64,000 bases of DNA from Pyrenula massariospora (lineage: Eukaryota; Ascomycota; Eurotiomycetes; Pyrenulales; Pyrenulaceae). Below the pieces are notes generated by a model, which saw only the letters and a list, made by a program, of their open reading frames with translations, was not told where the DNA came from and ran no database searches. The position numbers and the translations under genes are program-made. Positions within the stretch are counted from its first letter, which is position 1. The number at the start of each line of letters is the position of its first letter. Location: positions 62,001-126,000 of the forward strand of contig JAGFMI010000001.1 in assembly GCA_021030905.1 (NCBI GenBank). The letters are read 5' to 3'. Positions 38,826 to 58,392 of this stretch are shown here, piece by piece.

Positions 38826-39421
38826 TCAATCAAAATCGTCCCTGTACACCTGCCAACTCATGATCATCATCCAAATCAAAAATACCGCGGCCACAATCTC
38901 AAACGCAAACGCCGCCTTCCACACGTTGCAGATCGTCATCTGTGTCAGGTAGGCCAGCGTCTCCACCGTCACCCCCCGGTAGTGGGTTAAGTTGTTGCAA
39001 TTGGCGTTGACGTTGGCAGAGGAGCCGTAGAGCTGGATGGAGGTCTCGATCAGGCCGGTGAGCCAGAGCACGAAGAGGATGAAGGAGCCGATCAGGATGA
39101 GGCCGGGAATGAGGAGGCGACGCGAGGCGAGGAAGAGGAAGATGACCCAGAAGAAGAGGGTGAGGGAGGAGATGGTGACCATGTATGGGAAGAGCCTGGC
39201 GAAATGTGTTAGCCGTCTAGTTTGAAAAGGTAGAGGCAGAGATTGAGGGAGAGTCTTTACCATGGCGTTCCGAGACGCATTTGATGTTGCACCGCCATGA
39301 ACCAGGCGAAGATCCCCAGGCATGTTGCGGCCGCCGCAAGTATGATGATCAGCCATAGATTCAATTGCGCTTCCGGCCAGTGGTATCGCCGCCGCCGTTC
39401 CCGGTAGACAACTTCGGCCAT
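38826..39421 (-). CDS. Four-transmembrane protein, unknown function
   Basis: Exons 39421-39261 and 39195-38826 (65-nt intron, phase 2) give 176 residues. Four hydrophobic spans: LNLWLIIILAAAATCLGIFAW (exon 1), MVTISSLTLFFWVIFLFLA, LLIPGLILIGSFILFVLWLTG, and FAFEIVAAVFLIWMMIMSW near the end. Between spans 3 and 4 is a loop with NCNNLTHY and one Cys pair candidate. Topology is MARVEL-like (four TM, short tails), a group often found at plasma-membrane domains in fungi, but the sequence is too divergent for a firm call. The intron-retaining reading gives a broken first span. Confidence 0.75.
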
Positions 39422-41152
39422 TCTGCTAGAGGTTGAGAGAGGAGGTTGGGAGACGGAGGAGAGGAAGAGAAATTGAAGACACGGCCGTCAAGTGTAGAGT
39501 TTTTATCGAGACGATCTTCAGCGCCCACCGCTTCTTCTGCTTTGAGACGAATCCTCTCGTCGTCGACGCCGTTGACAGAGGGGCCAAAGTCCGGTTGGGC
39601 CGCTGTGCAGTGGTGCTTTGCGTAGTCAATTGTTATTTTCACACCGATTGAATAGCTTCTTGGCTGTGTCGGCTAGCAATGCAGCACTCTGGACAGCGCA
39701 CGCAGCGCGCTGCTGCTCAGGACAGAGTGCGCTCGTCGCCGAAAGACTTCGAGGTTCTTGACGTGGTACAGGCCCCTCGGACAGCCAAACACAGCAGCGC
39801 CGATTTTGGGGCGGAGACGCGACGAGGAAAGATTGCCGAGGTGGCTGCCGGCGCAGGAACAAAAGGTTGAAATGTTTTCAGGCGAACGAACGACACGAAT
39901 GAATCTTGCGAGAATTACAGAATGGTGCAGGATAAGCGATGATATGCACAATATGTTGTGTGAGAGGGATGCTTGACGTCGCTCGAGCCCGCCTGGTGCT
40001 TTTCTTGGATTTGAGGTGGTTGGGCCTGCAAAATCCAGGTGGCTGACCAGAATCCCATCGCTGGGCAACTCTCGACCTCGACCCCACGTTCACCCCGGTT
40101 TCGCTCAGATTAGATGCAAATCATTAAAAAACATTCTTTTACGCATGGAAGCACTCATCAACCCTCCGCGACATCTAGGGACCTTTTTGTGCGCGTGCGA
40201 TGCGCCGTCTTCGCCAGCCCAGCGCTCACAACCGTCCAGACATCACCGTTTCATGCGGCTCATAATGCCAAGCACTACTCTGTGCCTCCTCTGGCAACCT
40301 CCCAAGTCTTACGCTACCCCCAAAATCGCAATGCTCGCCGAATGACGTCCGCGTACACGACCTTCGCGGGAATGATTTGATGAATTCTAATGGTACGGAT
40401 GAGTAAGAACTTATTAACCGGCTACGTGTTCGATGCAGTAATGCTAGAGCAGTAGAACTAGCATAGGGCTGGTCGGGTGCAACGCGTGGGCAAATCAACG
40501 CAAATTCTCCAGGGTGCTGAAGGATGGACATGCTCGCGCCTTGCATCGCACCCAGCAAAGCTTTCTACAAGAAGAAGCTAGCCCACCGCGCTAGAGCACA
40601 TGATAGAACGTGCCATTAGATAATCTTTGCCCTCGGACAGGACGCTGAATAGTGAAGCCAGAAATCCGGAAGTACGTAAAAAGTTCGATGGCGAGGACAG
40701 TGGCAACAAGATCAACCACTTGGACCCAGAAGCGTAGATAAAATTGTATAGTATATAGGTAATCGATTGATTTTTAATAGATCTCTATACAGCGCCTTTG
40801 ATAATGTTCCGCGGCAGTTAGGCGTTGTCGGGTCAATAGAGCGCCCGCGCTCGGATACATCTGCGGCTCCTTTAGAAATCCAGGATGACATTCTGGGTTA
40901 ACGTCGTTGTTGATGCATGCAATCCGTCTCAGCAAAATTCCTTCCCCAGCACCCGCATTCGTCCGGTATTGTTAATAGCGGCCATCACCCACAGCCTGAT
41001 CGGTAGTTGGAGCCTGCTGTGTGTATGGCCCACAGAATGGCCAAATCAAAACAGAGGAACAAATCTCCTCGAAACTTCCATCGTACGTACAGGCCTAATT
41101 CTACCGCTACACGTCATAGTATTGCCCGAGTTTTTTCCTTTTCTATGCCTTG
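39422..41152. promoter_or_regulatory. Divergent intergenic region
   Basis: 1.7 kb between the four-TM gene and the dehydrogenase. No gene recognised. Confidence 0.45.
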
Positions 41153-41257: not shown

Positions 41258-42256
41258 ATGCCATCCTTCACTGTTTTCAAGGGATCCGAAGATGGTTCCA
41301 TCAAGAAAGCCCAGACCACCAAAGCAGACCTCCAAGGCGACCAAGTCTTCGTCCGAGTGACCGCCTCTGGCCTTTGCGGTACAGACTTGCATTACCGTAG
41401 CACGGATATGGGCCTCGGCCATGAAGGCGTGGGTGTTGTCGAATCCACTGGCCCTGCCGTCAAGAATCTTAAGAAGGGCGACCGAGTAGGATGGGGCTAT
41501 AACCACGATCAGTGTGGCACTTGTCAAGAATGTCTTGAAGGACGTGATACGTTTTGTGAAAGCCGCAAGTTCTACGGAGTCGACGATCTCGACCAAGGAT
41601 CCATGGCCTCACATGCAGTGTGGCGCGAAGCCTTCCTTTTCCGCATCCCCGATAATATCAGCGACGAAATGGCCGCTCCTCTCCTCTGTGGCGGTGCGAC
41701 GGTCTTTAATGCAATCTATGGGAACGGCGTCGAGCCAGAGGATACCGTTGGAGTAATAGGTGTTGGCGGACTTGGACATTTGGCCATCCAATTCGCCGCT
41801 CACATGGGCTGCAACGTCGTTGTCTTTAGCGGTACGGACTCGAAGAAGGAGGAGGCTCTGAAGCTCGGTGCGAAGAAGTTTCATGCTACCAAGGACGTCA
41901 AAGAGCTCAAGACCAATAAGAAGATTGACCATCTTATTGTCACAACAAGTTTTAACCCGGAATGGAGCCTTTACCTCCCCGTGCTAGCACCAAGGGCTAC
42001 AATCTACCCTCTCACAGTCTCAGATGGAAATTTCGAGATCCCTCAGATGCCGTTAATCTTGAACGGAACTCGAGTTCAGGGTACCGTTGTTGCTCCGAGA
42101 AGCGTTATGGTCAAGATGTTTGACTTCGCATCAAGGAATGATATCAAGCCAGTAATCAATAAGTTTCCGTTGACGGAGACGGGTATCTCGGATGCGATGG
42201 AAACGCTCGATTCTGGCAAGATGAGGTACAGGGGGGTGTTGGTTCCGGCCGCGTAG
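41258..42256 (+). CDS. Zinc-dependent alcohol dehydrogenase, cinnamyl/ADH6 type
   Basis: Medium-chain dehydrogenase that reduces aldehydes with NADPH, cytosolic by absence of targeting signals. Single exon, 332 residues, slightly short for the group (usually 345-360). Catalytic zinc ligands are in GLCGTDLHY and GHEGVGVVE, the structural-zinc Cys cluster in CGTCQECLEGRDTFC, and the dinucleotide fold in GVIGVGGLGHLAIQFA. The glycine-rich motif followed by FSGTDSKKEEA suggests NADP(H), since Ser/Thr replace the Asp used by NAD enzymes. An open frame extends upstream to 41150 but runs over the TATA box, so 41258 is the chosen start. Substrate cannot be told. Confidence 0.9.
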   Translation: MPSFTVFKGSEDGSIKKAQTTKADLQGDQVFVRVTASGLCGTDLHYRSTDMGLGHEGVGVVESTGPAVKNLKKGDRVGWGYNHDQCGTCQECLEGRDTFCESRKFYGVDDLDQGSMASHAVWREAFLFRIPDNISDEMAAPLLCGGATVFNAIYGNGVEPEDTVGVIGVGGLGHLAIQFAAHMGCNVVVFSGTDSKKEEALKLGAKKFHATKDVKELKTNKKIDHLIVTTSFNPEWSLYLPVLAPRATIYPLTVSDGNFEIPQMPLILNGTRVQGTVVAPRSVMVKMFDFASRNDIKPVINKFPLTETGISDAMETLDSGKMRYRGVLVPAA

Positions 42257-44800
42257 TGGAATGCGTCATCTGAAGTCGGCCGGCAAGCTGATAGCCATGT
42301 CTGCAAATTCACAAAGTTGAACCAAATGACGATGGCCTTGATAGAACATGACGTGCATACTCGTAAAGCCTGCAGTCCAATAGGCCTTGCAACATCTTTC
42401 GTGTCCATTCGCCCGTAGCAAATTGGGTATTCCCTTTCTCGACGTGAATGTTCGATGTTCATCACGCATATTTCTAGCGCTCAAACTCCTTAGGATCCTT
42501 CCTGAAACTTTACCTTGGGGCTAGCTTCGGGCCGGTGCTGTTAGCCTCCACAGATCGGCCCTGATGGATGATCAACATGCCAGTAAACATCTTTTCGTCG
42601 ATCCTTTTCGAAGCCCGATAGAGCCACCTTTAAGCCTTTGGGCATGGCTACTTCCAAACAGGGTCTTCCGCACGATCAACTTTATTCAAACGCGCAATTT
42701 GCCGCAACCGGCTTCGCTCACTCCGCAGAACTAATATCTAGCACCGCTCACCTACCGTGCCTCCTGCAGTGACAAGCCACCAGTAGAGCCATTAGTTGCA
42801 GGTGTCCTTAGACTGCATGACTGAAACCAAGCGGCGGAATGTCGAGGAGCTACCACGTCTTTCAAAATTGAAGCTCTAAACTAGTATTTCTCAGAGTAGG
42901 CTGCATTTTATCAGTTTGATGTCGTAACGGAGGTGGGAGGTTTAACGTTCTGGGGCATGCCGTGAAGAGGCCGGTTTTAGGAGAGGCGTAATTCTAGCCA
43001 TCCTGCTGCGATGTTATGAACTCATGCCCACATCATTGCTCATTGAATTTCTAATCCCACTGCACAGATAGGTTGTTCGGATTTCTGACGAGGCGTCTGC
43101 ACGGTTTTGAAAAAGATCTGTGTACTCCGAGCTAGCGAAACATCGTCACTCCTGGTACCGTGGTTTAAACTTGCTAAGCAGGGCATCCAGGTTCCGAGTC
43201 ATCCTCGAATTTGGTTAACTCACTCTTTTGACATCAAGTTCAAGCTAGTGATCAACCATGATCGAGAATACGGAGAAATCCCATCTTCGGGTTGTCCGTC
43301 CACTGCCGCTCACCGAGTGAGGATGGGAAAGTGCACTTCATCAACTTACGGCACAGCATCCTGATTCAGGGAGCTATTAGCTTCTGAGGACGGCGGACTT
43401 GCCATTCTTTCGATCTCTATTGTTCGGTCATGCCGGCGAACGATCAGACTTATCTTCTAGACCGTACAACGCTACCCAAGGAAGTTTCTCATATCATTCC
43501 ATCCATCATCGTTACGCCGAATGACCCAGCAAGCCATCTGATTACCGCGTCAGCAAAACCGGGACGGGAGCGGGAGCGATTCCCCGCCGCATATAGGTGA
43601 CATGGTTCAGGTCTAGATCTTGAGCGCTATGAAGGGTTCCTAGAGAAAAACTGCATTTTCTGGCGCAACGAATGTGCCGAGATTCATGCGGAAGAGGGGC
43701 CAAGGATTGGGATATCAGATTTGAGCGAAGTGAGCAAAGACACTCCGCCTCGATCAGGGCTGTGCTTTGATGAGCCTTTCTATCGGCCAGTACAGAATCC
43801 GGGAGTTGACCGGTAACATGTACATTTCTGGCATTTCGAGGCGATTTCTGCGCGGGACAGCCTCACGCTTTGATGGGGGCTGACGGATCAAGGCCAACAG
43901 TCTCTCGGAAGACGAATTAGACGTTGATCATGCACGGTCCTGGCGTAGGCCATGCATGACGATGGTACTTGGCATCGATTCAATTCGATGAGATGTTTGA
44001 ACGAGGCTGGCTGGCAGATGGTGACTAGATAGTAGCTCTGTTAATCATCGATAGTGGGTCTGGGGATAATGTTTGCTGAAAAGATATTCCACGGGCTTTC
44101 TAGAACGGTGTTGATCACGGAGATCACGCGCGAGGTGGAGGGTCGCTGTCGACTAAATTCGGCCTGTGTTGGTTGTAGAAACGCCATCTCAAAGTTCAAG
44201 GCGTCCGAGTTTTCTTCCTAACTCGGCGCGGACCTGCCAAAAAGGAGGTGGTGGCTTGCTGGCTATAGGCAGAAGCGGTTTGTGGTAAGGATAGCAAGGG
44301 ATCGAGTGTGCCATATATGCAAGCCACTTCAACATCCGTGCTCGGAGCCACCGCGATGGAGGGATGAGGACCGTTCTCTCGACCATCTACAGAAGGTGAA
44401 ACAATCCCACTCATCCCGCTGAAGGTGGGAGGGTGGGAATGATCTGCCGGCTGTCGTTTTGGATCTCGGTCACGGTCCGCGCGCTCGGTGCCGCTCGGGT
44501 GATCTTTCCCATCAACGATACTCCTTTCCGAATCTTATTACGGTACCAAAGTCGCACAGGGCGGGCTACAATCTGCTCGACTTTGGACCGGAATGCACTG
44601 ATTGATTTATTGTAGAGCATTTGGATGTTCAAGAGGCTTTGCGTGATGCCTTCACATGGCATTTTCTTCCATGGTTTCATGGCGTGCTTTATGTTCTACT
44701 TCAACCCATGCTGATTTTGGCTTTGCCTGTTCTTTCCTTTTCTCTTCTCCATGATAGAACTCACACCAGGTTCTCAAATTGGGCTTCTGTTGTCTTGACA
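42257..44800. other. Gene-poor region with degraded coding-like stretches
   Basis: No intact gene. An open stretch without ATG at about 43610-43817 (+) ends at a stop and reads coding-like (YEGFLEKNCIFWRNECAEI...), but there is no recognisable domain. Start of the accessory island. Confidence 0.35.
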
Positions 44801-45270
44801 ATGTTGTCTCCAGAAGCTATCATTAATATTGCATTTGGGGTTCCCATGTTCTTCATTGGCGTAACCGCTCTTTGGCTCGTTGTTTGGCAAACACGTCGGA
44901 TCGCAGGTATTTCTTATATTCGATCCATCCGCAACACCGCTTTAACTGGAAAACGCCATTAGGGGTCGACGAGGATCAAATTGCAGTTGATCCGAGCCAT
45001 TTTCAAGGTCCAAATTCACTATCGCCGTCGCCAGCGAGCTTATTCGTTGAAAGCCATCATAGCTCACCGACATCCGCAACGCCAGATCGTCTTCAAGCCG
45101 ATGAAGAGCATTTCTGTCCACGGTCATCCGAACAAGCGTGCAACAAAAGTGTCGCTCTCAATCCACCGGAAATCACCAAAGACGCGGTTGTGGTCATTGA
45201 TCATCAGCCCGACCTGTCTCGCGCGAGTACCCTTGTTCTCGAGCCCTCGGCCATGTGGGGAGCATGTTGA
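44801..45270 (+). CDS. Small single-pass membrane protein, island family copy A
   Basis: Exons 44801-44906 and 44963-45270, intron 56 nt (GTATTT...TTTAAC...TAG, phase 1); 137 residues. Exon 1 encodes MLSPEAIINIAFGVP then one membrane span ending LWLVVWQTRR; exon 2 encodes a disordered, Ser/Pro/Asp-rich tail of about 100 residues closing with LSRASTL. The charge pattern (Arg after the span) suggests N-terminus outside and tail in the cytosol. The start was chosen by alignment with copies B and C, although the frame is open further upstream. Function unknown; no family recognised. Same exon plan as 48890-49366 and 51982-51478. Confidence 0.65.
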
Positions 45271-46342
45271 CGGTCTTTTTCACTACATCGACGCCTCTAA
45301 GTCTCAACCAAAACTTTGAGAAATGCATTATTCTTGATAGATAAATGCACAATGTTGTGCGTGCGGTGATGGTACTCGCTTGCCGTTGTACCGTGGTACG
45401 GCAAAATATGGCACGGGTCTAGGTGTTTCAGTCTCTCACCCATTCTACATCTACTTAGTTGGCGAATCTACTTCAGGATGTAAGAGCAAGGAACACTGTA
45501 AGGGCAAACAAGGTCGGTCAGGATATACCCAGATATATGCGGGAGGAGCGCTTATAGGTTGGCAATGAAATCATTTATTTCTACAGAGAGCCTTTGCCAA
45601 GTGAAAGATTCATCTCGCCCTACTGACCTGTGCTCCATCAAGCCAGGGTTTCGCTGATACTTTCGCTACTGCTCAGATCTCAGCCTTGTACCGAGTGCAA
45701 GGCCAAAGGCACACGGTTGCAATGTCACTTGAGTTTTCCTTTTGCCTGTCTTTCCTATAGCTTTGTATGTCTGCTCTGACCCTCTGAGCTTCGATCTCGC
45801 TTAAGAATACATTTCATGAAGCAAAACCCGGCGTACAATCCTCAGGTATGGATGCCTCAGGTAAGACGCTTGAGAACCAGACCTATGTGAGGTTTTCAGC
45901 GCTAGAATATGGGACTCCATACACCATCTAGCTACCAATGTACAGAACTTACTTCCCTTTGCTACCTAGTCTCCCCGTATCTCTCCACGTATTTTAGTCT
46001 CGTTTGACGGGAACGGGTCGCTACATAGTCAAATACAACGTGTGTGAAATTAAGCGCCAAATCTCAAGAAAAGATCTTAGAATCAGTATGCGACCAATAC
46101 TGAGAACCCTTCTTCATTGGGGCACTTCTCATGACAAGCTGGAGCTCCACGCTACTAACAAGCTTTTCCCGCATCAACGGCGAGGCCACCTAACCCGGCA
46201 CTAGCAGAGCATGATGGACGAAAAATCATTTCGAGCTCTGTAATTCGATGAGTTGTAACCGAGCAAAAAGTTGAGACTGCGACCTAGGTACGTTGGTTGC
46301 AAGTGGAGCTTTGCTCCTTGGGGATACGTCTTCCCATTCACT
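45271..46342. other. Intergenic in accessory island
   Basis: No gene or repeat seen. Confidence 0.4.
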
Positions 46343-47045
46343 CAACGGATCATGGGAAGGCGCTGCTGGTCGATCATGTGCTTGTACATTGCGCAGATGG
46401 TGTGCTTGAGGATGTCGGTCGCTGAAAGGTGTGCTGAAACTAATAGATGAGGCACGAGACGGGTGAGAGACAAACTCTAGACCTGTGGTTCGTTAATATT
46501 AGCTTCTGTAGAGCTATCCATATTTTACAAATTTCAGCGCCCTAAGACTCCTCAAAACTACCAGCCTATCTTGACGGCATAGCAGCTCTCTAGTTTTGCC
46601 TTGGTGATTTCTTCAAATTTCTGATTATGTGTCGTCGATAATCTTGAATATTTGTCGTCGAGTTGCTGCGAGAATTCTAGCTTAGTCCCATTATGTACCT
46701 TATTTGTTCTTCAAGGACTCTGGATACTTGATAGTCCCGCAGGTCGATAATTCGGAGGCTTCAATGTCAGTCTTGAGACCAAGCCTACCACCTAAATGGC
46801 ATTTACTAAGCTCCGTTGTTGGGATCGCTAGCTTCTGTGGATGTTGACTGAATTCGAGGGTCTATCGAGTCGAGTTCTAGTATCCTGGGATAATATTGAG
46901 GATCAGCTTCTCAGAACGCAGCAAATCCGTTGATTAGTGGCAGGTCTCGCAATGGCTCGCTCAAATCCTTCTCTCGGAGCTCGCAAAGCTCGTAGAAAGC
47001 TTTGTTACATAGAAGCCATTCTGCGTCTGTATGGTATTTTTTACG
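46343..47045 (-). pseudogene. Decayed coding remnant, unknown family
   Basis: On the minus strand three short stretches with coding-like amino-acid use follow each other in changing frames: near 47045-46880 (KKYHTDAEWLLCNKAFYEL...), 46680-46558 (LEFSQQLDDKYSRLSTTHN...) and 46439-46343 (SATDILKHTICAMYKHMID..., ending at a stop after a possible acceptor). They suggest one former multi-exon gene, now interrupted. The protein family is not recognised. Chance cannot be ruled out. Confidence 0.3.
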
Positions 47046-48108
47046 GCGTTGCTTGCTTGCTATTTAGGCTGCTCCTGTGAGCATGTAGGTTCTGCTAAAC
47101 TAGCTGCGACTGCAAGCAAGAGGCTGAGACGCGCTCCGGTTTCCGCTCAGAGTATCATCGCCTAGGTTCCAGGGCGGTTTTTGGATCTTCATTGAAGCTC
47201 CAACATTTGTATACTATATAAGAAGGGCATCGACAGTCTTGGTGTGACTAAGTGGTTTAAGAAATAGAATGCAAAGCGTTTGAATGATGATCTTGAAACC
47301 GAGGATATTGAATTAGTTCAATGGCAGATTCAAAAGCTTCGTTGATGGTCTCCCATATCGTGTTGGTTCGCACCAAGACATTCTAATGCCTAATGCGGAG
47401 GAACTATCATTGGACAGCCAAAGGACCTTGCTCACAGAGTCCTCGAATTTGCCTTGCTCTTGACCAATGATATTGCCCATGACTCGTTGACCACGGCACA
47501 TAGTAGGGAAACAAGCTACGAACGCCACAGAGCAGGGAGATATGTCCATCTTTACTAGTTTCATGGTGCCATTCTCTGTTATTTAAGAACGAGATCAGGA
47601 AACGTTATTGGACACGTATCGCGATAGTGTCGCCAGGCGGACTCAATTGTTCACAGATACAGATTTTTACACGAATTCCTCCAATATGGCGCAATTGCCA
47701 ATATCTCAGTCAGCTTTCTAATAGCACGATGACTAACTGTGGTAGATTAGAAATTAGGGGCGTTGAGATCGACATTGTTGCAGAAGACCGAGAGCTTTCG
47801 ACCTGTCCTGGACTGCCGCTCGCAGTAGATCGCGGCGGGGTAAAGGGCAGACAGTCCATTTGTTCCATCTTCAGCCGCTTTGGTGTTCTTTGGTCATACC
47901 GAGACTCGAGAGGGAAGTAGGAGTAGAAGTAGACCAAGTAGCGGAGGCATCCAATGGAGTCTGCAGCACGCTTAATTTGGTTCAGACGAAGTGCCCGGCT
48001 GTGTGGCCGATTCTCACCGCCAATGGTGGCTGAAACCTGACACAAAAAAGTGGGGGAGGGGGCCTAAACTGGCGACGCGGATTTTGTCGTCTCCTATGAC
48101 TGGCTGAT
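47046..48108. other. Intergenic in accessory island
   Basis: Small frames on both strands without domain. At 48038-48053 a GACACAAAAAAGTGGG resembles the terminus of the MITE-like element that begins at 48210. Confidence 0.4.
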
Positions 48109-48206
48109 GTCTACAGCCAATAGCCGCAGTCGACGTCTACAGCCAATAGCCGCAATGAACGTCTACAGCCAATAGCCGCAATGAACGTCTACAGCCAATA
48201 GCCGTG
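48109..48206 (+). repeat. Tandem 26-bp repeat carrying CCAAT boxes
   Basis: Nearly four units of 26 bp starting at 48109, 48135, 48161 and 48187 (last one partial). Each holds CTACAGCCAATAGCCG, hence a CCAAT box, at exact 26-bp spacing. The units differ at very few positions, which points to a recent expansion. It lies about 690 bp upstream of copy B. Confidence 0.9.
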
Positions 48207-48209
48207 GTT

Positions 48210-48458
48210 GACAAAAAAGGTGGTACCGCGAAAATTTCTCAATATTCTTTCTTGATTACAGTAAGAATCTAGGCCAGAATATAAACCAATAAAGTCGGAA
48301 TCATATAACTCCGTTAATTTTGAATCAATTAAGCGTATTTTCAGAAAATTCTATGAAGTTTTGATAGAGATATTCAAGTTTTAACAAGGAGGGTTTGTAC
48401 GTGGAACCTTCCGCTGTCACCAAGAAGGCAGGTTTTGCGGTGCCACTTTTTTTTTGTC
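48210..48458. mobile_element. MITE-like element with inverted terminal repeats
   Basis: The left end GACAAAAAAGGTGGTACCGC (48210 on) is matched in inverse orientation by the right end, whose complement starts GACAAAAAAAAAGTGGCACC (48458 leftwards); the match runs for about 25 bases with a few mismatches and a poly-A length change. The 200-bp interior is AT-rich and non-coding. Size and structure fit a miniature inverted-repeat element of a DNA transposon. No clear target-site duplication was found. Confidence 0.5.
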
Positions 48459-48889
48459 GCCCGCGGACCAATTAGGGAATGAGCTTTCCTATTTGGTTTC
48501 TGTGAACGCATGGATGCTCTTCATGAATGCGTGTTCGGAGATTTTGCCGCGCTCCAGAGTCTCTTACAAGGTCATCTTCTGAAACCCTCCCCCCTCTGAC
48601 GTTCGGCAAGAACCTCATTCTCACCAATTGTGAGAAAAAGCCGCCCTCCGACAGATTTTAGTCTCGGCCTACATGTGAGTCGTCATTGGCAGCGACTGTG
48701 TCAATATCCCGTTAGCTTTTTAGAGCGCCCTCGCCCTGCAAGTATGGCTGATGCGAAGCTTGCATCTATTGTTTTAAAGCATGCTCAGAGCCTTCTCAAC
48801 TACTCCATGACCCTGATTCAGATTTTCAATGACTTCGTTATCTCATCTGTTCTAGCCATTTGTCTCAAGCCCTTCAACAACCCTGCATC
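48459..48889. other. Upstream region of copy B
   Basis: Probable promoter and leader of copy B; the plus-strand frame at 48748-48956 is out of phase with its exon 1 and considered a shadow. Confidence 0.4.
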
Positions 48890-49366
48890 ATGCATTCAGC
48901 AAAACTCTCCCCTGAAGCTATCATTAACATCGCTTTTGGTATCCCTATGTTTCTGATTGGCGTAGCTACGCTGTGGCTTGCGAGACGGCAAACGCGTCAC
49001 GTCTCAAGTACTATCATTCTCTCCACTTAGTATCTGACGGCGATGCTGATGAAGATATGCTCAGGGAAGGCCGACGAAGAGCAAGCCATTGCTGTCAACA
49101 ATGGAAGCCAGCATGCCCAGTCACCTCCGCTCTCCGAGGCTACGTCCTTATCGGGAAGCTGCCGCAGTCGAGAAACGCTCTCAGTCCCAGAAGAGCTGCA
49201 CAGCGTTCCGAAGAAGAAAACGGAAGTAAACCAAGTCACAGTCGCTCGCATTGAGCATGCTGCCGATCATGATCAAATGGCTACTGAGGAAGAGCCAAGC
49301 AGTTCGCAAGCTGTATCCCGCAGTCTATCTCGAGCGAGTACACTTATAGCCACGCCGTCGACCTGA
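48890..49366 (+). CDS. Small single-pass membrane protein, island family copy B
   Basis: Exons 48890-49007 and 49065-49366, intron 57 nt (GTACTA...CAG, phase 1); 139 residues. Exon 1: MHSAKLSPEAIINIAFGIP, span, then LWLARRQTR. Exon 2: disordered tail starting KADEEQAIAV, which lines up with VDEDQIAV of copy A, and ending LSRASTL plus six residues, also shared with A. Several GT/AG pairs are possible here; this one was chosen because it alone keeps the tail frame and the position and phase of the intron seen in copies A and C. Function unknown. Confidence 0.6.
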
Positions 49367-50429
49367 CCGCATTCATATCCACGCTAGTGGTTCTAACATA
49401 TGAATCGCTCTGGAGTCTCTTCGGCATTAGGATTGACACAACAAGGAGGTACTGTTGCGGGATCAAATTTGGTCGGCTCAAAGATATAGAACACGATTCG
49501 AAGAACCTATTAATTAGACCAACTCTTCGCCGAGTGTTCCTAGGAAGATTATCAGTTTTGACTTTGCTTAGTCTGTTGACCGGATAGTGCAAGGGACCAC
49601 ACCACTAGGTTTCCTTACAGTGTTCGCAGATAGGTATATAGAAAGACAGATCGAGGCAACGACCGGAAGCGTCTTTCTGGCACGTCTTGTAAAACAATCA
49701 TAATGATTAGTCAGGCCCTGAATCTATGCCCAGTCCTCCAGTCGGGGCCTCTGTTCCCATCCATAGGAAATGGCCTCGTCATGTCTCCATACCTTCTACT
49801 TCAGCCTTGATCATCGCTCCGCTCGAATTTTGACATGAGAATCGCCCTGCCTCCCATCTAACTGTCTTTCAAGCTTGCTCTCATCCTCTATATCAAAAAG
49901 CACCCCTTCCACCTGAACCTTTTATGCTATAATCTCCCCAGCCGTCTCTCCTGCATTAACGCTTCTATACTACAGAAGGAAGGACGTTTTCGAGCTGTAG
50001 CTCCGACCTCACCTCATAGCCACGAATGCCTCCGCCGTCTGGGCTCCTCTCCAGAGAAACGCCTTGCTTCCTAGCAGGAATCGGCTAATGCCGTGCTACC
50101 AACGTGCATCTGGCCGGTCGTGTCTACATTGCCGATGGCTCAAGAAAAGACAATCTCGCTTTAGATAGGTCCTAAATCATTTCACTGGTAGTGATGAGAT
50201 GTTGCGTCGAAGCATGGCTGAAAATGGTAGGGTGGGTAAGGCTGAAGGATGGGCCGCGCCTCTTAAGGCGGTGTCGGAGGATGAGAGCAGCGGATCATGG
50301 GTGGAGAGGCTCGTGCGGGTCTTGGGTGGGATGGATTGGACAGGTGGCACAAGGAGAAGAAATCAGAGAACGTTGCATATGTCAAGGAGTAAGGAAGGAT
50401 AGGATTCATGGTGAGCCAGTCACGAGCTT
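49367..50429. other. Intergenic in accessory island
   Basis: Nothing convincing. A TATATC-containing, pyrimidine-rich stretch near 49880-49960 looks promoter-like, but no gene follows it. Confidence 0.4.
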
Positions 50430-50531
50430 GAACTGGGCGCACTGGTGGAGACAGCCAATGCGAGCAAGATCCTCGAACCTGAACTGGGCGCACTGGTGGA
50501 GACAGCCAATGCGAGCAAGATCCTCGAACCT
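50430..50531 (+). repeat. Perfect 51-bp tandem duplication
   Basis: Two identical head-to-tail 51-bp units, 50430-50480 and 50481-50531, beginning GAACTGGGCGCACTGGTGGA. Being 17 codons long, it keeps the frame of a plus-strand open stretch. No sequence difference between the units, so it is young. Confidence 0.9.
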
Positions 50532-50539
50532 GGTCGACC

Positions 50540-50945
50540 GCGAACGGGGGCCAAAGATCACTAGTCGTCAAACGCAGCTTGATCTAGAAAGGTTGACTAT
50601 CGGAGGTATTTTTACAGGAGAAACGAACGTGGTCCTCTGTTGTGATGAGAAAACATACTATGTGATCAAGCGGTCAGAACCTTATCCAATAAAACAGGAC
50701 CAGTATTACTACGACTAATGCGGCAGGAGACCCCTAAATGTAATGGTCAATTTCTCTTTCAACCCCTCTTGGCAACGCAGCTGGAAGGATAAACGGCACT
50801 TTTCTCAGGCGTCGAGGCTCTATGATCCTAATTGTACTGGTCTTTGAGAGGCTTGGGCCGAAGACGCAGCCTGGTCCAAGTCGCCGAAGACGCAACCTGA
50901 TTTAGAGGGTTTGACTGCCGGTGATGTTCTTGCAGAAAAAAGCAG
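50540..50945 (+). repeat. Diverged direct duplication, about 315 bp apart
   Basis: The segments at about 50540-50640 and 50840-50945 are related: at the protein level TQLDLERLTIGGIFTGE corresponds to TQPDLEGLTAGDVLAE, with codon-style substitutions. Both are open in the same strand sense. This suggests two copies of a former coding unit of unknown family. Confidence 0.45.
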
Positions 50946-51477
50946 CGCGGTGATTTGGCCTTCTGAAAGTTCACCTTCAGTCTTTGACCTTGGCGCTCGG
51001 TGCCACGCCCGTAACATGTTCTCGTAAACTTCCAAAGGCGTCGATACTTCACGAGTCACAGGGTTCAACAGCAATCACAGATTTCAATGCTAACTTTTCA
51101 GGATATTCGGTAGGTATCTCCAAGAACTAGAAAGGAACTCGAAAGGCTGTGGTAAAAGCGATCTGTATCATAACAAGTCCAGAACATGGAAATTCTGGGA
51201 GAAGAGACCTCCTTATGATAAGCGCATCAATCTACCTTGAATCTCGCCTTACGATGTTCGTGCTATTGAGACCTTCCGAAAGTCATGATTCACGTTCTAA
51301 AATACTCTCTGTAATCTCCGGCGTCTTCGCCGTTTGCCCTCAAAGACTGCCCTTGACCTCTGGGTATCGCACCCAGCGGGGCCTCCCTTAGTAGAGATCT
51401 AGGGAGCTTATCCTCTGATTACCCATCAAGCATACCAGCCGCATTGCTGTTGTACTAGATCGATACCGACATGCAGG
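50946..51477. other. Intergenic, 3' of copy C
   Basis: No gene seen. Confidence 0.4.
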
Positions 51478-51982
51478 CTAGACCCTCTTGCTCGAAGACG
51501 CTTCTTCTGCCGGCGAAGGGGTTTGGTGAAGGTTATCCGCTAATGCCTTATTGACGATCGTAGTTACATCAGACAGGTCACTGAGTGACGACGAGCAGTT
51601 TTTTTGTTCAATCCCTGTGCCTCTTGAGAAATTGCGGTCCGTGCCAGTTTCCAGGTTGACCACCGCTCGGAGGTTTGAGGGATACGGTATGCCCTCGCTG
51701 TAGGAGCCTGAGGGGCTTACTATTGTTGTGGCAGGCTCCGAAGATAGATGAATATTCCTGTTGGTGTGGCTATTCATGTTGTCGGCTGGGTTTGAGAAGA
51801 CCGTATCCCTGCGTTCTGAAGCCCTTAGTACTTGCATTTCAGGTAACGATCTTTCCGAAAATACCTGAAAGGCTTCGCGTCTGCCATACAATCAGCCACA
51901 GCCCCGTGACTCCAATGACAAGGGAAGGAACACCGAGGGAAATATCGATCACTGCATCTGGCGGGAGCCCCAAAGGCGCCAT
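51478..51982 (-). CDS. Small single-pass membrane protein, island family copy C
   Basis: Minus strand. Exons 51982-51865 and 51785-51478, intron 79 nt (GTATTT...CAG, phase 1); 141 residues. Exon 1: MAPLGLPPDAVIDISLGVP, span, LWLIVWQTR; its length (118 bp) equals that of copy B exon 1. Exon 2 is a Ser/Thr/Asn-rich disordered tail (...SSSLSDLSDVTTIVNKALADN...) that no longer aligns with those of A and B. The strong exon 1 match with a freely varying tail suggests that the membrane segment is what selection keeps. Function unknown. Confidence 0.65.
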
Positions 51983-53410
51983 GGCTTATCAAGCATAAGA
52001 TTTACTACTTGTAGAAGGCACAGAGAGACAGATACATTCATGAGGAAAAGGGAGGAAAGGCACTCGAGGAATCAATCTAGGGTTATTGGAACGAGCGGAG
52101 CTTTATACATTGGTCGACCCTTTCCCAATCTGAAGAGGAATCCGCGGGCCCGAGTAGTAGGGAAGGCCAGCGGAGAGCCAAAGTTCAACCTTACGCATAT
52201 GCCTGGTTCATTTTGGCAATTGAAAAGAATGGTCATTGGAGAACGAAAGACCTGTCTGATACGATCACCGTTAGCGAGACCCCGGACACCAAAAAGGAGG
52301 CTGTCGCAACAACTTTGCTTCTGCCAAAACGGTGGCGCGAGCGGACCAATCTGCGCGGCATTGCACCGCCGCGACGACAGGAACCCAGGCTAGATGAGCC
52401 ATCCTCTGCCTTGATGAAATGATGATTGGTTTCTAAAATGGGATTTGAATTGCGGTATGTTGGTTGCCTTATCTGTTGTATGCGTCAGCTGTGTCTACCG
52501 CAGCGTAGCGGCTACCCAATTCATGATGTACGATCACATGAAATGCATGAGCCTTCCGGTAGGAATAATGCATCCGCCCTGCCTGATGACAATCCACAGT
52601 CGGGATGAGAAGGCTGAAATGGGGGCTTCATGCCAGATGCGTCCCACGTCGAATCGGGTCGAAGCGATTGACATCAGCGGGCGGCGTGGGAGGATCATGA
52701 TGCCCGTGCCGAACGCCAAAAAGCACGGACCGGTGTTAGAACCGCCTTGGTAAGTGTCCACACCATCGCGAGGTCGCGAGGTCGCGGTCCCGCTTCTGCA
52801 GATGCAACCTGTACAGTTATCCGCTTCTACAGGTATTGGGTGGAGTCAAGATGCTGTATCTGGCCTTGTTTCCTGAAACTAGGACTGGCTCAAACACGGA
52901 ACACTCCATTTTGGCTGACCAAATATTGAACGCCTCCATTATCATCGGCGGCTTTGAGCCTCAAGATCAGCTGAAAAGCCATCTGATCAGTTCTCTATCT
53001 GGTGGTCCGAAAGCTATGGTTACCGCTGCCTGCGCTCGCGGCCACCTGCATGATGAACGCTAATCTGATTTCTCCTACCTCTTGTCAACAAAGCGCGGCT
53101 GCTCCACCAAATCAGAGTCTCCGCCGATCAGATAGCTGTCATGTCAAATGTAGGTCACTCCTTCTCGGCGTCATCTTCGTGCGATTATAAGGAATACCTG
53201 CCGAGGCGGTACGATTTTTGGCTTACGGAAAACAGCTCGGCTAAAACTGTACAATTGGAACGGCTAAGTTATTGCTTTCCGGCATGTGGCTATGTCCTCT
53301 GTAACGGCCGTCGGGAGAACGATGCAGCGAAAAAGAAGCTTGACTGGGAGGACGACATCATTGGGCCGTCGGTGATGATTCGGGCAGACTTGGAAGGGCG
53401 AGGGACGGCA
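51983..53410. other. Intergenic in accessory island
   Basis: No supported gene. A plus-strand frame at 52445-52753 starts with a signal-peptide-like stretch and has a few Cys, but lacks any other support. Confidence 0.35.
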
Positions 53411-53515
53411 CTGACTTGGGAGTGGGCGTCGACTTGGGAGTGGGCGTCGACTTGGGAGTGGGCGCTGACTTGGGAGTGGGCGTCGACTTGGGAGTGGGCG
53501 CTGACTTGGGAGTGG
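53411..53515 (+). repeat. 18-bp minisatellite, six units
   Basis: Units of CTGACTTGGGAGTGGGCG or TCGACTTGGGAGTGGGCG start at 53411 and repeat every 18 bp, the sixth being cut at 15 bp. The two variants of the first two bases alternate irregularly. It translates as TWEWAS/TWEWAL repeats on the plus strand and as PTPKS repeats on the minus; neither frame is convincing as a gene. Confidence 0.92.
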
Positions 53516-55068: not shown

Positions 55069-55755
55069 CACAATGCGATAGCTAATCCAATGTGCGGGTG
55101 AGGCAAGTCTTTACCTAGAAATGCTAGAAGGAAGACGAAGCTAGCACATCGACCCATATTTATGATATAAGCATCCCACCTGCTCCGCGGCAGAGCGGCG
55201 GATCGGCTGCACCCGGCCATCGCCGAGATCGGCGGCGGCTGTCAACATCCAAGGCTGCGTCATCTCGCGATCCTGCTTAAGAAATCAAACCACAGCTAAC
55301 TTGTTTCATTTGAGTGTCTGCGTCTCGCGTCAATAGCAGCATGTCCCTCGCTGCACGTACCACGAGGCTGTATGCGGGAGAATACGAGTAGATCCTCATG
55401 GAAATCTTTGGATGCAATCACCATCCGCTCCTTCTTGATGAATCCTTCTTGATGAATCCTTCTTGATGAAGTCATTCTCCATCTGCTCCCTTCGTTGGCG
55501 AACTGTGTCCTTCTCCCGGTAGCAAATGCATCCCGTATAAACCGGGTCTGCCGAGCGCGGGTAATGGCTCTTTCCCCAATCCTTCTACCTTAGCAACTCG
55601 GAAAGGATGAGGCAGATCCGTGCATATAGAGCTTTGTCAGATGCATCGAAGCACTTGGAGAACTTAGATGCCACAGCGAGAATTGTCGAGGGCTTGGCTT
55701 GACGCTTGCACTCTTTTATCGCCAAGGATATTGCGTCAATCTTCAGCTAACGGCA
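55069..55755. other. Intergenic with 14-bp triple repeat
   Basis: Three perfect tandem units TCCTTCTTGATGAA at 55429-55470. Otherwise nothing seen. This is the right edge of the accessory island. Confidence 0.5.
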
Positions 55756-58392
55756 TCATTCTCCGTCATCGTCTTCCAAAGCCTGATCAGCTATGCGGCC
55801 GCCCTCTGCTTGAACCTTGACTTCTTGCTTTCGATATAAGCTAGCAAGAAAGTCTGATGTGCTTGCTTCGTCAATGCTCTTATCTTCCCGGACTTTGAGA
55901 AACCGCGGGAATCTCAAGCTCAAGCCTCGCTCCTCACTCACGAGACCTATCGCCGCGGTGTAAGTAGGACTTAAAGTAATGTCCGCGAATGCCATTTCCC
56001 AGACCTCTTGTGGCTCGAACCAGACATCGGGATGTCCGCCGTACTCGACATAGCTTGGATGATCGATGGTGTTGTCGCCTTCTTCTGAGTATTTCTCTTT
56101 ATTGGCTTTGTAAAAGGTGTCGGTGAAGCCTGAAATGCATTTTGTCACAACTTGCAGAGACCCAGTCTCTGGATTTCGACAAGCTAGTAAGATAGGAGAC
56201 CACCACTTTGCTTTGCGACCTTGACCATGCCAGGCCGCCACGGGGATTAAATCAATCGTATCTGCCGCGGTATTATAATCTTTCTTCACCTTAAGCCAAG
56301 AATCCAATCGTTTGTCAGGCTCGTAGGTGGATAACAAAGCTTTTCTTCTCGTTCCTTTCTCCTTCTCTTCTTCCTTCTCCGTCTGACTCTTCTTCGCGCC
56401 TTTCTTCGCCTTTGTTGGTGTCTTTGGTGCCGCTTCTGCCGATTTTCCATCGTGTTCCTCTCCGTTGGTGTCTACTAGAAGGTCTGGATTTGGCAGATTA
56501 TCAAGGACCTTAACCATAATACCCTCGCATTTCACGTCAATCGCACTCTTGAAAAATTCAAGTACCGTCTCAGAGTCAGCCGAAGTGGCGTCGATACTCT
56601 TGACCCACGTGAAATGGTTTCTTTTCTCAACGAACATGCTGCGAAGTAGACCTCTCCGTTCGCGAAACGGTCTGTCGAGCAGTTCTTCGCCATTTAGAAG
56701 CATGAGATCGAACGAAAATAGACAAACATCAACCTTTATACTACCGATATCAACATCCTTCCTTGCTCGATTCGTCAAAATCTGGAACGGCTTCAGCTCG
56801 CCGGACTCACGATCGACTGCCACGACTTCGCCTTCTAATATGAAGCTGGATACACCATCACCACGGATCTCTGGCACCAACGCGACAAGATCTGGATATT
56901 TATCCGTCATTACCTCCAGATGCCTTGAAAAGATCGAGACCTTCCCACGTTCATCGCAATGGACTTGAGCTCTCTGGCCATCATATTTAAACTCACAGCT
57001 GAAGTCTCGGCCTTGAAGCTTTGTAAGCATCTCACCAAGATCTCTTGTGATGCTCCCAAGCATAGGCCGCAACGGGATGTGAAGAGTAAGGCCGCATCTG
57101 ATAAGTAGCTCGTCGGAAACACCTACCTTTAGCAAAGTCGGGACCAGATCATTGTAGTTAGGACGCCTTGCGAAGCATGCCTTCACTGTCTCCTCGGCTT
57201 TTGAGTATCGCTCAGCTAAAGCCTCCTTTTTCAATGCCGCTAATTCATTTCTCCCCGGGACCGAGAAATCCGCGCCATCAGGTTTTGTAAATAGAAACGC
57301 GCGGGCTAGAGCAATGAGCATCGTGGTCTTGACAGCACCAATACGTAGGTGTTGCACCAGCGTTCGGACGATGTAGCGGCTCTCTTCGGCACCTCTAGCA
57401 TCTTGCACGAGCCTCTCAACGATTCGTTGTTTGCTCTCCACACTACCGTGGCCTTTGCTGTTTGCAATCTTCACTAGAGATTGATAGACCCCTCTAATTG
57501 ATAACGGCTTTGGCTTTCGCAGCGTGAAGCTTTGCTTCTTTTTCGCTTCAAAAGCCACATCACCCGCATCGCCATGTTTGTCATATAGAGTCTTCAACCC
57601 ACTGCTATCCAACCCACAGACTTTTTTCAAAGCTTTTGATATTGCCGATCCGCCCAAACCTAGTTCCAAGGAGATGTAAGGTGGCGAGATAGCATTCGTC
57701 GCTAACCAAACTGCCGGGAGAAGACTTTCTGGATCACCCTCGATGATCGTACGCAAGCAATTAACGAGAGTATCGACTATCTTGATGCGACTTTGAGTGC
57801 TGTTGACCAGGACGAAGCACCTTGTAAGCAGCGCGTACGACGCCTGGCCACCCTCCGAGGCCCAGTGCTTTTGTAGCTCTTCCACATATTTCTGAGGCTC
57901 AAAGGTCATCGGGCTCTCGTCGAAGGGCACGGTGAGCGAGATAGAGTCTTCAGCTGACGCCAGAGATTGAAGCGATAATACGTCTTGCTTAGGTTGACCA
58001 TTTGTCGCATCCGTTTGCACAGGTTGAGATACAAATGGATATCTTGACGTTGTGGATGAGACCGACCCACTCGGCTCTTCGCTTTTCTCGTGAACACTTT
58101 GCTGATCAATGGGCTCGCGGTCGCCATCCGGTAGCTGCTCGCGTTGGCCTTGGGCATCGGCCTGGTCAAACTCCTGTTGCAGTTTCCGTGCATACTCCTC
58201 ATCTGTCAACTGACTCTCCTTCGTCTTAGAGCCCGCTCCATTGCGAGTTTCAACGGACACTGCTTGTTTGGGAGCTTCTCTCGGACCTCCCGCTTTCAAG
58301 CTCTGCTTTCCAAAGAAGAAGTCCAAACTCTTGCTCGGGATTGGTGATGGTTTAGAATCGTTCTTCTTGCGCTTCTTCGCAGGGCTCTCCAT
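55756..58392 (-). CDS. CDC9: DNA ligase I
   Basis: ATP-dependent nuclear ligase that seals Okazaki fragments and repair nicks. Single exon; 878 residues from the ATG at 58392 (a further ATG at 58413 would add seven residues). A PCNA-binding-type motif SLDFFFGKQ lies at about 22-30, followed by a disordered region, the DNA-binding domain, and the adenylation domain with the active-site Lys in FKYDGQRAQVH (about 465). The conserved EGEVVAVD, EGIMVK, WLKVKKDY and the C-terminal FPRFLKVREDK motifs are all seen. An insertion rich in Lys (KTPTKAKKGAKKSQTEKEEEKEKG) sits between the EGIMVK and LKVKKDY motifs. It shares a promoter with COG4 that contains an MCB-like box. Confidence 0.96.
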   Translation of the reverse strand: MESPAKKRKKNDSKPSPIPSKSLDFFFGKQSLKAGGPREAPKQAVSVETRNGAGSKTKESQLTDEEYARKLQQEFDQADAQGQREQLPDGDREPIDQQSVHEKSEEPSGSVSSTTSRYPFVSQPVQTDATNGQPKQDVLSLQSLASAEDSISLTVPFDESPMTFEPQKYVEELQKHWASEGGQASYALLTRCFVLVNSTQSRIKIVDTLVNCLRTIIEGDPESLLPAVWLATNAISPPYISLELGLGGSAISKALKKVCGLDSSGLKTLYDKHGDAGDVAFEAKKKQSFTLRKPKPLSIRGVYQSLVKIANSKGHGSVESKQRIVERLVQDARGAEESRYIVRTLVQHLRIGAVKTTMLIALARAFLFTKPDGADFSVPGRNELAALKKEALAERYSKAEETVKACFARRPNYNDLVPTLLKVGVSDELLIRCGLTLHIPLRPMLGSITRDLGEMLTKLQGRDFSCEFKYDGQRAQVHCDERGKVSIFSRHLEVMTDKYPDLVALVPEIRGDGVSSFILEGEVVAVDRESGELKPFQILTNRARKDVDIGSIKVDVCLFSFDLMLLNGEELLDRPFRERRGLLRSMFVEKRNHFTWVKSIDATSADSETVLEFFKSAIDVKCEGIMVKVLDNLPNPDLLVDTNGEEHDGKSAEAAPKTPTKAKKGAKKSQTEKEEEKEKGTRRKALLSTYEPDKRLDSWLKVKKDYNTAADTIDLIPVAAWHGQGRKAKWWSPILLACRNPETGSLQVVTKCISGFTDTFYKANKEKYSEEGDNTIDHPSYVEYGGHPDVWFEPQEVWEMAFADITLSPTYTAAIGLVSEERGLSLRFPRFLKVREDKSIDEASTSDFLASLYRKQEVKVQAEGGRIADQALEDDDGE

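Follow-up and report, generated by a model that had tools for sequence, protein, structure and literature searches.

In a 64,000-nucleotide stretch of genomic DNA from the fungus Pyrenula massariospora (contig JAGFMI010000001.1, positions 62,001 to 126,000; hereafter the window), we observe three related genes, A, B and C, each predicted to encode a small protein with one membrane span near its N terminus and a long hydrophilic tail. Genes A (44801-45270) and B (48890-49366) lie on the plus strand and gene C (51982-51478) lies on the minus strand. An earlier sequence-only reading had described all three as two-exon genes with a phase-1 intron, encoding proteins of about 140 residues. Joining and translating the exons confirmed its coordinates, its frames and its three GT-AG introns, and supports the two-exon plan as a gene model for each copy, with predicted lengths of 137, 139 and 141 residues for A, B and C and all frames open to the stop. 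Exon 1 encodes a short N terminus and the membrane span, together with QTRR in gene A (44801..44906, +), ARRQTR in gene B (48890..49007, +) and WQTR in gene C (51865..51982, -). The introns measure 56 nucleotides in A (44907..44962, +; GTATTT..CATTAG), 57 in B (49008..49064, +; GTACTA..GCTCAG, with a CTGAC branch-like site) and 79 in C (51786..51864, -; GTATTT..ACCCAG, with CTAAG and CTGAA sites). Exon 2 encodes the tail, which contains the sequence DLSRASTLV in A (44963..45270, +), SLSRASTLI in B (49065..49366, +) and DLSDVTTIV in C (51478..51785, -).

In every model, the single intron lies three residues beyond QTR, where it separates the first base of a codon from the other two, and without splicing each gene would run from exon 1 into a stop inside the intron. 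The shared position and phase, the open frames and the DE[DE]Q / IAV residues that match in A and B directly after the intron all point to splicing at these three sites, and gene C could use an alternative acceptor. The N terminus of gene A may also be read in a second way: an in-frame upstream ATG at 44708 (44708-44800, +) would extend the protein by 31 residues starting MLILALPVLSFSLL, possibly a second hydrophobic or signal-like start. Gene B has no in-frame ATG between the upstream stop and the called start, and a gene A start at 44801 appears to fit gene B better than does one at 44708.

The 34-residue cores of exon 1 are identical at 24 of 34 positions between A and B, 20 of 34 between A and C and 17 of 34 between B and C. 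Fifteen of the 34 positions are invariant, many of them within the span, and the shared signature reads P-x-A-x-I-x-I-x-x-G-x-P-x3-IGV-x2-LWL-x3-QTR. The sequence-only reading had proposed that the genes are paralogues and that shuffled sequences should be used to examine the claim; the exon-1 similarity proves to be far above chance. For every pair, neither 5000 full shuffles nor 5000 further shuffles that left the sequence of residue classes (hydrophobic, polar, charged) unchanged ever reached the local BLOSUM62 score, which is 125 for A-B, 117 for A-C and 88 for B-C. Read in all six frames, the window contains 41 hydrophobic 19-residue segments, and the 38 besides those of A, B and C score 47 or less against the exon-1 cores. 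On these two comparisons, we reject a chance likeness of unrelated membrane segments. A profile built on the three cores recovers its own members at E 1.8e-25 to 8e-24, values that are circular by construction and leave the pairwise shuffles as the appropriate test; its next match among 2513 six-frame segments of at least 15 residues, at E 0.13, is antisense to the tail of gene A. As DNA, A and B are alike over 103 nucleotides at 71%. The 500 bases flanking each copy on either side show no convincing similarity between copies (8 of 200 shuffles reach the A-B upstream score, and 20-193 of 200 reach those of the other five comparisons).

The differences within the exon-1 cores fall mainly at third codon positions, with counts at positions 1/2/3 of 9/3/19 for A-B, 13/2/24 for A-C and 16/5/21 for B-C. 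By the Nei-Gojobori method, nonsynonymous divergence (dN) is 0.19, 0.27 and 0.41 for A-B, A-C and B-C, and synonymous divergence (dS) is 1.92, saturated and 1.61, values that are rough because they come from only 34 codons. The low dN relative to dS and the third-position excess speak for protein-level selection holding exon 1. Because synonymous sites are near saturation, the data also speak for old duplications and lead us to reject a recent one. The three genes are thus an old, local family of paralogues. The earlier description of the family as fast evolving applies to the tails and fails for exon 1, and the copies themselves are old.

A single hydrophobic span is found in each protein, as the sequence-only reading had it: the best 19-residue mean hydropathy is 2.28, 2.14 and 2.08 in A, B and C, and the next best segment reaches 0.75, 0.12 and 0.46. 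The net charge of the N-terminal flank is -1 in A, 0 in B and -2 in C, and basic residues, arginine among them, follow close behind the span on the C-terminal side in all three. The topology proposed earlier, with the N terminus outside and the C terminus inside, may hold: the basic residues nearest behind the span favor it, although the net charge of the 15 residues that follow the span varies in sign between the proteins.

A mere anchor would seem to need less conservation than 15 invariant core positions, many of them in the span. This excess suggests a rival explanation, in which the genes encode regulatory micropeptides: the span would bind laterally to a pump, transporter, receptor or other larger membrane protein, the tail would set turnover or location, and the paralogues would serve different partners or conditions. 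That the duplicates have long been retained, with synonymous sites near saturation, agrees with such a role. Against it, the invariant span residues show no helix-face periodicity (90% of 5000 shuffles reach the 100-degree moment), a comparison that has little power with three sequences. With no single helix face for these residues, a lateral interface is not supported. The single-span regulatory micropeptides of membrane pumps resemble A, B and C in having one span, a small size and possible lateral binding; likened here by description only, they are mostly shorter than our three proteins. Overall, we consider this explanation possible but unlikely. Regulatory micropeptides are the subject of a review (PMC10058886).

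The tails are 100-102 residues long and hydrophilic, with 19-26% serine plus threonine, a composition that suggests disorder. Over their whole length, the tails of A and B are related, with a score of 52 that 15 of 2000 shuffles reach, and both hold the LSRASTL sequence noted previously. The tail of C, over its whole length, is no more like that of A (962 of 2000 shuffles) or B (266 of 2000) than shuffled sequences are. To this extent, the statement in the sequence-only reading that the tail of C differs is borne out; what it overlooked is a motif, LSx[AV][ST]T[LI][VI], that all three tails probably share. The alignment sets DLSDVTTIV of C beneath DLSRASTLV of A and SLSRASTLI of B, and the same nine residues are the best in C by the A/B motif score. 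None of 7359 nine-residue windows from the translations of twelve neighboring open reading frames reaches that score, and 165 of 20000 shuffled C tails do. We regard these nine residues as a probable, much-changed version of the A/B motif. Between A and B, five of the nine motif codons differ, and three of these changes are synonymous (CTG/CTA, CGC/CGA and ACC/ACA). In LSRAST, the arginine ahead of the serine/threonine pair would create a site for basophilic kinases. The arginine is an aspartate in C, and we reject a kinase site common to all three tails; the phosphorylation proposed earlier is a conjecture.

Comparisons with known families covered Pfam, NCBIfam, PHROGs, the PDB, viral contigs and prokaryote genomes, a range too narrow for the lack of a named match to count as a sign of novelty. 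Pfam returned no family for any of the three proteins at E up to 10, in a scan whose HMMER filters drop most matches above about E 0.1. Neither NCBIfam (best E 0.044 for one member with a CoA ligase model and E 0.17 for one member with a histidine kinase model) nor PHROGs (best E 0.24, one member) gave a credible match. Three PDB sequences matched at E 2.3 to 2.7 over 15 residues of the span of cytochrome c oxidase subunit 4, which we take as chance between hydrophobic segments. Pattern matches numbered 13 in viral contigs and 71 in prokaryote species genomes, and tblastn at E 1e-3 upheld none of them. Among the papers listed in literature searches, we found no recognizable description of such a family and no printed peptide string that matched; the family may nonetheless have been published. 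Fungi commonly encode short hypothetical proteins whose N-terminal span pattern is similar, which serves as a lead and not as a test. The genes form a well-supported trio of paralogues, matched to no named family in these searches.

The sequence-only reading had also linked the genes to fungal recognition loci. We find no support for this link: A, B and C contain no Pfam family, and the neighbors that match above the cut-off belong to ordinary families. Pfam contains models for the HET, HeLo and NACHT domains, and no known domain of fungal recognition or regulated cell death was encountered in A, B or C in the Pfam scan. According to PMC12881547, an N-terminal helix matters for the membrane targeting of HeLo/HELL proteins; these and the gasdermin-like proteins of fungal regulated cell death differ from A, B and C, which have no Pfam match.

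Among the systems compared, the nearest described analogue by size appears to be SPK-1 of Neurospora sitophila, a spore killer that PMC8092558 describes as a 134-residue protein with two predicted spans and a central cytosolic part. The same paper also mentions rfk-1 and reports sequences similar to SPK-1 only within the genus. SPK-1 resembles A, B and C in its size, its lack of a recognized domain and its predicted membrane segments (PMC8092558). It differs, when compared by description only, in having two predicted spans where A, B and C combine a single span with a long C-terminal tail, and no two-span layout of this kind was found in the three proteins, given their next-best hydropathy values. 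The existence of a fungal killer of similar size, together with a constrained exon 1 and drifting tails, lends some weight to the view that the membrane segment alone is what works, as a small membrane-active peptide or as an effector in cell death or genome conflict, to which the tail would add regulation or stability. The tail motif that is probably kept in all three proteins, the two spans of SPK-1 against one here and the lack of a credible family in Pfam, NCBIfam or PHROGs all speak against it, and we regard this view as improbable.

The reading we prefer is that A, B and C are old paralogous small single-pass membrane proteins whose flexible cytosolic tail docks a partner through a short motif, a proposal that we judge to be evenly poised. 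The N terminus would face the outside of the cell or a lumen, and the tail of about 100 residues the cytosol. Fixed G-x-P, IGV, LWL and QTR blocks mark the shared span, which would set the membrane, the topology and perhaps lateral partners, and the tail, mostly free to vary, would be a flexible tether presenting LSx[AV][ST]T[LI][VI] to a cytosolic partner. The proteins would most likely act as membrane-tethered scaffolds or regulators.

Several observations weigh against this docking model. The lack of helix-face periodicity described above is one, and the net charge of the 15 residues after the span (A -1, B +4, C 0) is another. The copy of the motif in C stands at about 0.8% in its shuffle test (165 of 20000 shuffled C tails do as well), and the finding of LSx[AV][ST]T[LI][VI] only in the three tails, among six-frame segments of at least 15 residues, is partly circular, since the pattern was drawn from the same three sequences. 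No relatives outside the window were confirmed in the viral and prokaryote collections searched. The intron of gene A contains no CTRA branch-point-like site. In a random-join control, 152 of the 2173 places clear of the three genes (from 4000 draws) permit a join of at least 100 codons, on a measure that gives 110, 104 and 115 codons for the three genes, so the open frames alone would arise by chance about 7% of the time each. Codon use gives a weak signal, with scores per codon of 0.005, 0.020 and 0.021 for the whole genes A, B and C and of -0.023, -0.065 and 0.036 for their first exons, those of A and B falling below zero. The twelve neighboring open reading frames score from -0.029 to 0.086, and scores above those of all three genes, up to 0.115, occur among further open stretches in the region. 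In exon 2, the called frame is the top of six in A, B and C, by a small margin in A and by 0.015 to 0.012 in C. The evidence from codon use is too weak to stand alone.

The weak codon signal, the chance joins that are not very rare and the tail of C, whose whole-length likeness to those of A and B does not exceed that of shuffles, would suit a different account, in which the copies are non-functional duplicates, exon 1 being left over from a gene that once coded and the tails being open by accident. Against this account stand the third-position excess and the low dN relative to dS in exon 1 in all three pairs, the intact state of all three frames, the relatedness of the A and B tails (15 of 2000 shuffles) and the partly synonymous changes in their motif. 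We consider it improbable that the genes are relics of this kind.

Around the three genes, nine nearby open reading frames were compared with Pfam. Five score above the cut-off, as alcohol dehydrogenase, ATP-dependent DNA ligase, RINT1/TIP1, PLP decarboxylase and VPS41; of the other four, one matches MARVEL below its threshold and three match nothing. By these matches the window reads as part of a fungal chromosome, and gene content and short introns together suggest a filamentous ascomycete. The frame with the MARVEL match (38826-39425, -) has several hydrophobic stretches and scores 22 bits against a cut-off of 32.8. Between the dehydrogenase, which ends at 42256, and the ligase frame, whose low end is at 55756, no further family match at the curated cut-off was found among the stretches scanned. 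These were ten open stretches (one overlapping the dehydrogenase; two scanned at E 0.001 and eight at E 0.1), in an interval that has 77 with at least 60 codons; nine had no match and one had a sub-threshold match. At 52081-52419 (+), the neuraminidase-like domain PF18413 is matched below its cut-off (21.2 bits vs 25, E 0.00025), possibly by chance. The G+C content of the interval is 49.1%, compared with 49.9% elsewhere. No Rfam match at the gathering score and no tRNA were found in the window.

Tandem repeats also occur near the genes. A 26-nucleotide unit is present in 3.7 copies with 95% matches at 48109-48204, about 0.7 kb upstream of gene B, and a 51-nucleotide duplication with two copies and 100% matches lies between B and C at 50429-50532, inside an open frame without a Pfam match. 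At 53413-53515, within tandem repeats that span 53407-53515, an 18-nucleotide unit occurs in 5.7 copies; the open frame there encodes TWEWAS or TWEWAL over and over and belongs to no Pfam family. A further tandem repeat lies at 55429-55470.

Small spliced genes for membrane proteins such as these are easily missed by annotation. A broader idea, which we put forward as speculative and rather unlikely, is that they represent an unnamed fungal family in which the signature span and the cytosolic LSx[AV][ST]T[LI][VI] motif form a membrane signaling or scaffolding module whose paralogues diversify mainly in the linker between. If relatives in other fungi retain the span signature together with the tail motif, the two would provide a searchable handle on an uncharacterized family, as well as a testable working idea of how its members may act.

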